Below, piece by piece: positions 1 to 54,165 of a stretch of 64,000 bases of DNA. The stretch is taken from positions 1,426,001 through 1,490,000 of the forward strand of contig CP126196.1 in assembly GCA_030272155.1 (NCBI GenBank). Reading direction: 5' to 3'. Position 1 is the first letter of the stretch, and each line of letters starts with the position of its first letter. The DNA is from Tetradesmus obliquus. Its lineage: Eukaryota > Chlorophyta > Chlorophyceae > Sphaeropleales > Scenedesmaceae. A program made the translations under genes and the position numbers. The notes under the pieces are model-generated. The model worked only from the letters and a program-made list of their open reading frames with translations, searched no databases and was not told the DNA's origin.

Positions 1-260
1 CTTTCTAACGGACGTGCTGGCGGTGCTGCCTGTGGTGTATCAGGTGGGGGCACCACGCCTGTATGTTGGGAGCTATCACTGCTGGTGGTGCAGCAGCTGC
101 GGGAAGCACCACGCCTGTGCACTGCACAACAATGCTGCCGGTGTTGTCGCAGGTAGGTGGGGAGCACTGGGCGCTGTCATTGCACCCGACATTGCTGCTG
201 TGCTGCCGCCGGCCAAAGTTACGCTGACTGGTGCTCTGTTGAAACAGAACTGTTGCTTGC

Positions 261-330
<70 letters not shown>

Positions 331-52332: not shown

Positions 52333-52364
<32 letters not shown>

Positions 52365-54165
52365 ACACCCCGAAACTGCTCGCACACATGCAGCACCCCA
52401 GCTTTCTTCACACAGCTCAGCCCCAGCTGCCGCTTCTGCAATGCTGCTTCAAAAAAGGACCCCGCACCTGCGGCTGCGGGCAGCTCTCGTTGGCAGCAAT
52501 CAGCAGCAGCGCGCCGTCCATGACTGCTGCTCCGTTAAGCATAGTGGCCATCAGAATGTCGTGGCCTGGGCAGTCCACAAACGACACGTGCCTGCAAAGG
52601 AAGCACCACGCAGCAGCGCAGGAGTAGACAGACTTGCACAGATTACACACATGCTGCTGGTGTGCAGGAGTGGCGCTGAACCTGGCAAGGCCTGCGCAGC
52701 ACGCACAGAGCACTATAGATACACCTGCGGTGCTGCCTGCTCTAAATGAAGTGCACGCAACCAGCAGACAGGCATTCGCACGCGCGCGGCTCTCAGCCCT
52801 GGCCGCTGTCATGGGCAAGTCGAGCACAGGCACTTGCAGGGCACCCTCTGCTGCAGCCACTCGCACAAAGCAAATACAAATCGGCTGCTGGGTTATTCCA
52901 TAATCCCTAATCCCTGAACCCCCGTACCCTCAACCGCAAGGCAGCCGTGCGCACCTGACAAGCTGCACCGCCACGCCGCTCTGACACCAGCCCTTGTCTG
53001 AACATTGGATTCTCCAAAGCCCAAGCCCAAGAACAATAAAACCCTCAAACCCTGCGGCTGCTGGCCTCACCTGATGAGCTGCATCGGCCCGCTGCACTGG
53101 TCACAAGGAGGTGCATCCTCCTTGCTGCTGCCAAACGCCCTGTAGCATGTTGGCCGCTCGCAGGAGGGGCACTTGTAGATCTTTGCGTTTGCGTATCCCA
53201 GCTTGATTGTGATGTTGCGCTCAAGCTCATTCTTGAAGCGCACTGTCTGCACGCCTGAGATGGCTTTGACCACGGTTGACTTTCCGTGCGCCACGTGACC
53301 GATGGTGCCTGCACGATGCAAGCGGTAAAGAACAAACCCATGCAACGAGGCAGATTATGAGGTGATCAAGCTGCAAGGGAGTAGCTTTGCAACGGACCCA
53401 GCAGCTGGCACAGCCCAGCTTGATGTGTGACACACACTGTTTGACACACACTGTTTGACAGCGGTTGTGTCCCTGCTTGCTTGCTTGCTGTGACAAGCCA
53501 CTGCTTCAGGGCGCCAGGTGCTGCAGCAGCTGCTTTGTAGGCGACGCGGCAGTTGGCTGGCGCTGCTACTGCTACTGCTGCTGCGCATATGCTTGCTGCT
53601 TTCTGCAAGCTGCAGAGCTGTGCTAGCTTGCCAAGAGCTTGCACACACGCCTACAGCAGCCGTGATGTGGCAGCTGCTGCAGCCCTGCGGCTTCCAATCT
53701 ACACCCCTGGCCCCGGATCACGAGCAGCAAGTGTTACATGCGTGCAGCTAAACGACAGTGCATGGCAGCTGCCGCACACATGCAACTGGGCTGCTAGCCT
53801 GCTGATGCAACTCAGTTGCAGTGGCAGTTGCTAGCACTGCTTAGACGGCACCTGCGCTTGCAGTTGCTGCCTTGTAGGTGGTATGTGCAGATCGTGCACT
53901 GCTTGCTTCTGACTGCCCTGCATACCTATGTTGATGGTCGCCTGCCTGCTGATGACTTCTGGGGACAGTGGGTTGAGGTTCTCTACCACTAATGTCTTCA
54001 GGTCCTGCAAGTCCAGTGCATAAATACCTTGGCTGTGAATTTCCCTCACTGCCAGAAGCCATGAGCTGTCGATCGCATGGAAACAGCTGCTTGTGCTGCT
54101 GTCTGGTGTGCTACTGCTGGTGCCGGTCTGCTTACTTGCTCGCGCAAGCCCTTCGATTTAGCCAT
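46686..54165 (-). CDS. EIF2S3: Translation initiation factor eIF2 subunit gamma
   Basis: GTP-binding subunit of eIF2, which brings initiator Met-tRNA to the 40S ribosome. Ten exons read 54165-54136, 54004-53926, 53308-53071, 52591-52468, 51674-51533, 51133-51004, 50464-50359, 48470-48288, 47533-47420 and 46922-46686; phases 0,1,2,0,1,2,0,0,0 close to 460 aa, the usual length. The first exon codes only [10 protein letters not shown], continued by DLKTLV and [16 protein letters not shown]1 is GHVAHGKST (40-48), the zinc knuckle has CPSC..C..CDQC (83-108), G3 DCPGH (122-126), G4 NKID (178-181). Domains II/III include [32 protein letters not shown] and [20 protein letters not shown], ending [10 protein letters not shown]. 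Introns 6-9 contain copies of flanking exon edges, and intron 7 a long CA/CG-rich tract. Confidence 0.97.
46985..47050 (-). repeat. Acceptor-side copy of eIF2 gamma last exon head
   Basis: CCGCAG acceptor plus about 57 bases coding [16 protein letters not shown] repeats the start of the exon at 46922 ([16 protein letters not shown]), about 126 bases upstream on the minus strand. Confidence 0.9.
47575..47640 (-). repeat. Acceptor-side copy of eIF2 gamma exon 9 head
   Basis: Sequence coding [13 protein letters not shown] repeats the start of the exon at 47533 ([13 protein letters not shown]). It is the last element before that exon on the minus strand. Confidence 0.85.
47845..48150 (-). repeat. 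Two donor-side copies of the eIF2 gamma exon 8 tail
   Basis: The tail of exon 8 ([19 protein letters not shown], then GTGCGC) recurs at about 48150-48065 and 47935-47850 with its donor. Both precede the acceptor-side copy of exon 9 on the minus strand. Confidence 0.9.
48570..48960 (-). repeat. Three acceptor-side copies of the eIF2 gamma exon 8 head
   Basis: TGCCGCAG- or CTCGCAG-type acceptors followed by [17 protein letters not shown] sequence start near 48610, 48749 and 48951, ahead of the full exon at 48470. The 48610 and 48749 copies share a long intron segment with TACGTCTGTATGTTAG. A weaker trace occurs near 49025. Confidence 0.92.
49030..50235. repeat. About 1.2 kb alternating purine-pyrimidine tract (CACGCA-rich)
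   Basis: This part of eIF2 gamma intron 7 is almost wholly built from CA, CG, TG and AC dinucleotides (for example CACGCACACGCATGCACACG), with one strand switch to TGTGCG-type sequence near 49590-49660. It is low complexity with no exon. The open frames in it (Cys/Val/Arg or His/Thr repeats) are composition artefacts. Confidence 0.93.
50520..50710 (-). repeat. Two acceptor-side copies of the eIF2 gamma exon 7 head
   Basis: Copies begin near 50704 and 50584 (minus strand) and code [15 protein letters not shown] and [16 protein letters not shown], ahead of the full exon at 50464. Spacing is 120 bp. The unit includes the flank coding or reading GCATGCAGTTGG. Confidence 0.93.
51990..52220. repeat. 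About 70-bp direct repeat pair in eIF2 gamma intron 4
   Basis: Segments at about 51994-52064 and 52145-52215 share GTAGCAAGGTT, CAGTGCCCCCAC-like and AGTCCCTGCTGCTG blocks at about 80% identity by eye. No exon edge is seen in them. Confidence 0.8.

Follow-up and report, generated by a model that had tools for sequence, protein, structure and literature searches.

Among the accepted ways in which introns are gained is tandem duplication at AG|GT (review PMC3443670, citing Hellsten 2011 and Gao and Lynch 2009). A new intron arose in the potato RdRp gene when a tandem duplication crossed an intron-exon boundary; this gene also carries a plain 83-bp duplication inside intron 1 (Ma, Lan and Niu 2016, PMC4974935). 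Partial exon tandem duplication is described for five probable gains among 31 novel intron positions in Drosophila (Lehmann et al. 2010, PMC2891723). Introners are transposable elements that lie dispersed in the genome, recur in different genes and occur chiefly in rapidly evolving lineages, green algae among them (Gozashti et al. 2022, PMC9860276). Here a 64,000-nt stretch of the genome of the alga Tetradesmus obliquus (contig 6, positions 1,426,001-1,490,000, termed the window; genome of 104.66 Mb in 17 contigs, GC ~57%) is described, in which introns of several genes contain diverged copies of the neighbouring exon ends together with their splice sites, referred to as ghosts. The data, extended to genes elsewhere in the genome, indicate that introns probably grow by repeated tandem duplication across splice borders, with the exon edge as a putative anchor.

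Self-comparison of the window by BLASTN (E<=1e-5) revealed 81 direct and no inverted repeat pairs, all local, with a largest separation of 981 bp; the main arrays were also seen by Tandem Repeats Finder. The first-pass annotation had counted, by eye, more than 40 exon-end copies with splice sites in introns of six genes. A conservative test, in which a 40-nt exon edge had to score >=40 and the match to reach within 6 nt of the border, confirmed that such copies are real and identified 36 ghosts in five genes, comprising 9 in eIF2-gamma and 27 in NOG1, the K+ channel, the mannosidase and COQ4 (14 acceptors, 13 with AG, and 13 donors, 12 with GT). Introners or other transposable elements carrying splice sites might account for similar extra intron length in many genes, yet they have next to no probability as the source, because all 81 window pairs are local and the units contain the coding sequence of the local exon. 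A 600-bp probe, the sole one searched genome-wide, gave in the rest of the genome only matches of 39-57 bp, on one other contig, over a TGC run.

The wider analysis used genes chosen independently of repeats. A genome profile search with PF00118 provided ten chaperonin loci, representing eight CCT subunits and two Cpn60, which together with eIF2-gamma form an annotated set of 11 genes, 113 introns, 57,000 intron bases and 16,632 exon bases. The bias tests therefore cover one genome and 11 genes, ten of them from a single protein family. The weakest PF00118 locus (C11, one match) was omitted, locus L029 ends 800 bases short of its matches, and gene ends lying outside the fetched stretches or unjoined were left out, at least in alpha, beta, gamma and eta. 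Exon chains were built with a small gene finder, removal of duplicated peptides by hand and spliced alignment with a high intron penalty. The first gene-finder chains were full of near-identical mini-exons, which were ghosts strung together as false exons; once these were removed, all 11 genes gave stop-free chains. The eight CCT products (alpha, beta, gamma, delta, epsilon, zeta, eta and theta) each display one continuous match to the solved subunit, zeta being ~16 residues longer across the match, and delta had matched in four pieces while ghosts were still in the chain. The 10-exon eIF2-gamma product can be aligned, across its exon junctions, with the solved structure of eIF2 subunit 3 (PDB; 743 bits over query residues 7-452), with small gaps only near residues 83-107. 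The earlier proposal that complete exon chains persist beside the copies thus holds, and, judged from these homologues, the ghost-free chain is presumably the spliced one.

Repeat pairs less than 2 kb apart in the 11 genes are overwhelmingly direct (225 versus 13 inverted; p ~4e-51 on the assumption of independent pairs, which does not hold), and repeats are present in 10 of the genes. A targeted search of the 113 introns found 129 ghosts in 53 introns, of which 122 keep AG or GT: 40 introns hold the 63 acceptors (59 with AG), and 32 introns hold the 66 donors (63 with GT). False tandem copies created by the assembly, for which tandem repeats are a classic problem, are highly improbable, since the copies differ mostly by ~5-20% on the exon side, carry different intron types and occur in 10/11 genes on contigs of 3-11 Mb. 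Repeat coverage rises with intron length, from 1-2% in introns of 82-323 bp to 13-25% at 333-509 bp and 34-62% above 520 bp. Median length is 658 bp in introns with ghosts (n=53) and 307 bp in those without (n=60), length correlates with ghost number (Spearman 0.75; ~140 bp more per ghost), and subtraction of 128 bp per ghost leaves a median of 307 bp. The mean intron of the set, ~504 bp (57,000/113), compares with a published mean of 462 bp for the species (PMC5966456). Edge copying is the simplest account of the long introns in these genes, and the repeated growth of introns in unrelated genes, as suggested for the window, is supported; no gained intron was shown in the genes analysed.

Similar one-sidedness was observed in twenty unselected 10-kb loci, 16 of them located at 1.5 Mb of the other contigs and four, on as many contigs, at 2.5 Mb. 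Direct pairs occurred in 15 of the 20, with 283 direct and 31 inverted pairs in total; local direct duplication is therefore a property of the genome and not of the window. Of the inverted pairs, 26 come from one low-GC locus (L019, C14:1500001-1510000, GC 0.49), whose 75 direct and 26 inverted local pairs set it apart from the rest; it is perhaps a transposon or array region.

The repeats of the annotated set group into 85 families. An exon edge is part of 77 of these (43 acceptor, 31 donor and 3 mixed), the other 8 are intron-only, and no family is confined to exon interiors. Expected proportions were obtained from a null in which random duplications of the observed periods strike short starting introns, exon-internal events are rejected, acceptor and donor units must retain a minimum intron part, copies decay neutrally with indels, and families are called by the same pipeline. 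The choices made were an indel rate of 0.2 of substitutions, the indel sizes, a transition bias, uniform event ages, 12-25 events per gene and splicing limits of 44 or 10 nt for acceptors, the 44 nt being taken from the same data, and 10 nt for donors; starting introns were <=346 bp and assumed ghost-free. Family counts were simulated in six unbiased settings and in one that preferred edges tenfold, unit lengths in three settings. Intron-only families constitute 9% of those observed against 41-53% across the six unbiased settings, the 10-nt limit giving 41%, while tenfold edge preference gives 17%. Edge-containing families (77/85) thus exceed the 47-59% expected (p ~1e-10 against 41% intron-only), supporting the earlier view that copies are commoner at exon edges than in intron interiors. 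A plain minisatellite whose position is independent of gene structure was rejected on the same comparison, which is not significant for recent copies alone.

The same excess bears on the possibility that geometry and survivorship are sufficient, with random duplications, purging of exon-internal ones, short introns and exon-derived copies that stay recognisable longer. The absence of exon-internal families (0/85) fits such an origin, and the simulation started from introns shorter (median 261 bp) than the real ghost-free ones (307 bp), a difference that speaks for it. However, forward simulation with these very ingredients yields 41-53% intron-only families, and these are adequately detected: duplications planted into the actual introns were recovered, for intron-only and acceptor units, respectively, in 98/107 and 104/112 cases at 4% decay per copy, 87/108 and 89/112 at 8.3%, 60/108 and 80/113 at 12%, and 29/107 and 60/112 at 16%. 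Even if half of the intron-only families had been missed, the deficit would persist (p ~1e-4 against 26%). Because the null gives 41-53% and detection power is adequate, the bias over all ages is not due to geometry or detection alone, and an explanation confined to these factors is considered unlikely.

Gene identities in the window were assessed by running Pfam on eight hand-trimmed joins of predicted exons; a gene-finder annotation of the whole window merged genes and was rejected. Of the six genes named originally, five were recovered above the Pfam cut-off, namely the ion channel (PF07885), the GH38 mannosidase (PF01074, also PF07748), NOG1 (PF17835 and PF06858), Coq4 (PF05019) and eIF2-gamma (PF09173 and PF00009); the SGNH/GDSL match fell below its cut-off (23.5 versus 32.9 bits). 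Two of the eight joins had no Pfam match. The K+ channel, mannosidase and COQ4 chains are partial, each containing one to three "exons" of 2-4 nt that are surely wrong. The eIF2-gamma gene and the ghost edges of the window are as follows, donor positions being those after which the splice site lies.

46686..54165, minus strand: eIF2-gamma gene, 10 exons, from stop-free translation, PDB alignment and Pfam
54136-54165, 53926-54004, 53071-53308, 52468-52591, 51533-51674, minus strand: eIF2-gamma exons 1-5, the first (10 aa) being a guess
51004-51133, 50359-50464, 48288-48470, 47420-47533, 46686-46922, minus strand: eIF2-gamma exons 6-10
50416..50706, minus strand: eIF2-gamma acceptor array, SFDVNKPG exon head with intron tail, period 119; ghosts 50703 and 50583, true 50464
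48425..48952, minus strand: eIF2-gamma acceptor array, exon head, period ~139; ghosts 48947, 48748 and 48609, true 48470
47834..48356, minus strand: eIF2-gamma donor array, tail ...ADRLVGQ, period ~219; ghosts after 48074 and 47855, true 48288
47497..47634, minus strand: eIF2-gamma acceptor copy, VLGEVGALP exon head, spacing 86; ghost 47619, true 47533
46874..47053, minus strand: eIF2-gamma acceptor copy, VTKLSKGEV exon head, spacing 122; ghost 47044, true 46922
33046..33876, plus strand: NOG1 acceptor array, period ~123, VSRALRSLPYVDPSLPTLAL exon; ghosts 33061, 33170, 33293, 33416, 33546 and 33659, true 33782
34304..34645, plus strand: NOG1 acceptor array, period ~105-108, ITDTPGLLHRPDEY exon; ghosts 34344 and 34449, true 34557
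32163..32353, plus strand: NOG1 acceptor copy, spacing 130; ghost 32165, true 32295
32409..32587, plus strand: NOG1 donor copy, spacing 126; ghost after 32576, true 32450
3312..4333, plus strand: K+ channel donor array, tail ...ALRQKMTE; ghosts after 3514, 3652, 3757, 3898, 3986, 4134 and 4222, true 3409
2948..3306, plus strand: K+ channel acceptor copies, GDILPTTPL exon head; ghosts 2968 and 3118, true 3246
1119..2603, plus strand: K+ channel, heavily duplicated stretch, acceptors; ghosts 1124 (true 1354) and 1535 (true 1668, AG lost)
1119..2603, plus strand: K+ channel, heavily duplicated stretch, donors; ghosts after 2288 and 2393, true 1725
6342..6533, plus strand: K+ channel donor copy, spacing 159, chain uncertain here; ghost after 6533, true 6374
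15311..16005, plus strand: alpha-mannosidase donor copies, chain partial; ghosts after 15484 (true 15341) and 15959 (true 15731, GT lost)
29371..29550, minus strand: COQ4 acceptor copy, spacing 130; ghost 29533, true 29403

The long eIF2-gamma intron also contains ~1.2 kb of alternating purine-pyrimidine sequence, rich in TG, CG and CA (49040-50290), which is one of the eight intron-only families of the annotated set. CAG/CTG trinucleotide runs occur at many window sites (e.g. 262-330, 10224-10290, 16529-16566) and within the duplicated NOG1 units at 34304-34645. The ~10 kb from 54200 to 64000 are devoid of local repeat pairs at E<=1e-5, and the protein predicted around the open frame 60181-61305 (minus strand) has no Pfam match. 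Tandem duplications whose periods are divisible by three were observed at 20201-20316 (54), 22345-22502 (39, 42), 42692-42994 (72, 99) and L025:7844-8399 (114); these possibly lie inside coding sequence, as expected if exons are also struck and in-frame copies survive.

Neighbouring copies in the annotated set are spaced at a median of 130 bp (quartiles 117-151, n=129), and the 81 window pairs, neighbours or not, include 18 at 105-140 bp and 18 at 210-280 bp. The shared spacing had been read as a sign of a mechanism acting at splice borders. This argument is not supported as it stands: duplications in the unselected loci have a similar period (median 126, n=35, through a filter that admitted 70-260 bp only), and the spacing is thus not splice-specific. 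Full-length units hold intron and exon parts (e.g. 262 bp at 92.7% identity, period 139). The exon portion has a median of 52 nt at acceptors and 56 nt at donors and is close to random placement (Kolmogorov-Smirnov p of 0.02-0.05 and 0.17-0.41, respectively), and a fixed, splice-anchored cut is accordingly not supported. Both the common period and the near-random exon portion are also what geometry alone would produce. In single-period acceptor rows the intron part (period minus exon part) is at least 44 nt, as needed for a working 3' splice site. Intron-side homology to the true edge (z>3) was detected for 43/63 ghost acceptors but only 21/66 ghost donors. Higher-level organisation is displayed by intron 3 of L036, a two-level array in which acceptor copies carry alternating tail types. 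In intron 8 of L030 the head types of the donor copies are interpreted as the series A,B,B,A,C,D, a higher-order arrangement.

The divergence of the copies informs both their age and their possible function. At acceptors with clearly homologous intron sides, true and ghost copies differ by 0.087 in the exon and 0.165 in the intron part, as expected if one copy is held by selection; this roughly twofold difference agrees with survivorship as well. Ghost-ghost pairs with homologous intron sides (16 pairs) present 83/615 = 0.135 exon and 86/617 = 0.139 intron differences (0.139/0.154 in 6 acceptor pairs, 0.132/0.131 in 10 donor pairs) and look like neutral leftovers. True-ghost differences, in contrast to simulation, are concentrated at third codon positions (3.15-3.55 times other positions versus 1.2-1.6), with 107 nonsynonymous to 176 synonymous codon differences against 307:161 in a neutral simulation run in two settings with fivefold edge preference. 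In the codon-position classes, pairs belonging to one family are counted together, and the associated p-values are therefore too small.

These silent differences raise the possibility that ghosts are functional, serving as alternative or stepwise (recursive) exon ends under purifying selection. Retention of splice dinucleotides in 122/129 ghosts, against simulated fractions of 0.82-0.89 or 0.70-0.86 (p 0.02 against 0.89), a low number of gaps (15 in 129 ghosts versus 0.25-0.28 per ghost simulated) and the lower divergence of exon sides than of intron sides all favour function, as does the third-position preference in ghost-ghost pairs without clear intron homology. Where intron homology is clear, however, ghost-ghost pairs look neutral, with a third-position ratio of 1.18 and 27/73 differences at third positions in a sample of 14-16 pairs representing about nine families, with six of 14 pairs coming from a single family. 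In-frame stops show no clear depletion (3/115 ghosts versus 22/382 and 10/354 simulated), ghost-free chains match solved homologues in one stretch, and copies joined from already diverged haplotypes would yield an equal silent excess. Function of the ghosts is accordingly judged improbable. Two readings fit the silent-site excess itself: either the copies had already diverged when joined, by haplotype exchange or array turnover, or the ghosts are partly selected. The even codon pattern of the homologous ghost-ghost pairs leans towards pre-diverged copies.

Several observations weigh against border-driven growth of introns. Among recent full-unit rows (>=85% identity), 8/11 span an edge, and of the other 3 one belongs to a donor family; the excess has the same direction but is not significant against the 53-59% expected (p 0.16-0.27), as geometry would predict, and the edge bias therefore depends on families of every age taken together. 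When the unselected loci were annotated ab initio, with poor exon finding, a weak edge excess emerged (26/33 genic families versus 1068/1821 control intervals), and at least two recent duplications there (L011:1390, L022:4794) have little coding signal, although the test is weak. The fraction of alignable intron sides is 0.43 against 0.65-0.82 simulated, which plain tandem duplication explains badly: intron-side homology to the true edge is undetectable for 53/129 ghosts (16 acceptor, 37 donor; z<=1.5 on 42 nt), the exon side being ~90% identical. Third-position ratios are 3.37 in ghost-ghost pairs whose intron homology is unclear and 2.60 in those that have none, hence uneven. Finally, no repeats were found in CCT zeta (L028) or in L037, an extra locus comprising a class I tRNA synthetase piece from the smallest PF00133 gene; L037 is not a fair draw, because its matches did not overlap, unlike those of the C10, C13 and C15 PF00133 genes. 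The overlapping profile matches of these three (C13:3960174-3960690, C10:4649428-4649926, C15:1330053-1330400) suggest exon-edge copies in further tRNA synthetase genes.

Taken together, the preferred explanation, which we regard as likely, is the growth of introns by repeated tandem duplication across splice borders. The genome would keep producing local tandem duplications, most of them 100-150 bp long. When one straddles an exon-intron border, the copy joined to the exon body would be spliced as before, while the other, with its splice site, would become intron. Additional rounds, some of which duplicate two units at once, would extend the intron by about 130-140 bp with each copy; the ghost edges left behind would form a decaying series and be mostly neutral leftovers. 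Exonic DNA as the start or putative anchor of the exchange, with at least one breakpoint in the exon, most likely explains the edge preference. The exon edge, kept constant by selection, may stay competent for recombination and re-seed copies, also between diverged haplotypes, whereas intron-only arrays would diverge and stop exchanging. A stronger version, in which exon edges are self-renewing seeds of intron growth, unequal exchange also joins strongly diverged haplotypes and some ghosts are still used or selected as alternative ends, is tentative and rather doubtful. A genome with recurrent border duplication in housekeeping genes would allow direct measurement of how introns lengthen, how duplicated splice sites compete and how the gain of an intron or exon begins. 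It also sets a practical trap, as ghosts mislead gene finders into false mini-exons.

Compared with the described systems, the unit most closely resembles that of the potato RdRp gene (PMC4974935), in which the 3' part of an intron with its splicing signals is duplicated together with the exon start; units of this type are present here in full-length form. That gene represents one case, with a new intron, while in T. obliquus the copies are serial, affect many genes and are left inside the intron. Tandem duplication of exon sequence, with direct repeats across splice sites, is shared with the AG|GT model (PMC3443670); in that model an exonic copy becomes a new intron, in contrast with existing introns that grow by units containing intron. 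The Drosophila gains (PMC2891723) likewise involve partial exon tandem duplication with a proto-splice site, but multi-copy arrays such as those found here are not described in the account of those cases that we cite. Introners (PMC9860276) also change intron content on a large scale, although they are dispersed and common to many genes, whereas the present copies are local. Serial, edge-biased copying of exon edges in many introns was not found in a literature search covering titles and the beginnings of abstracts, with few subscription papers in reach. Tandem duplication at splice borders is otherwise known from single or few cases, and what appears to be new here is its serial, edge-biased action over many introns.

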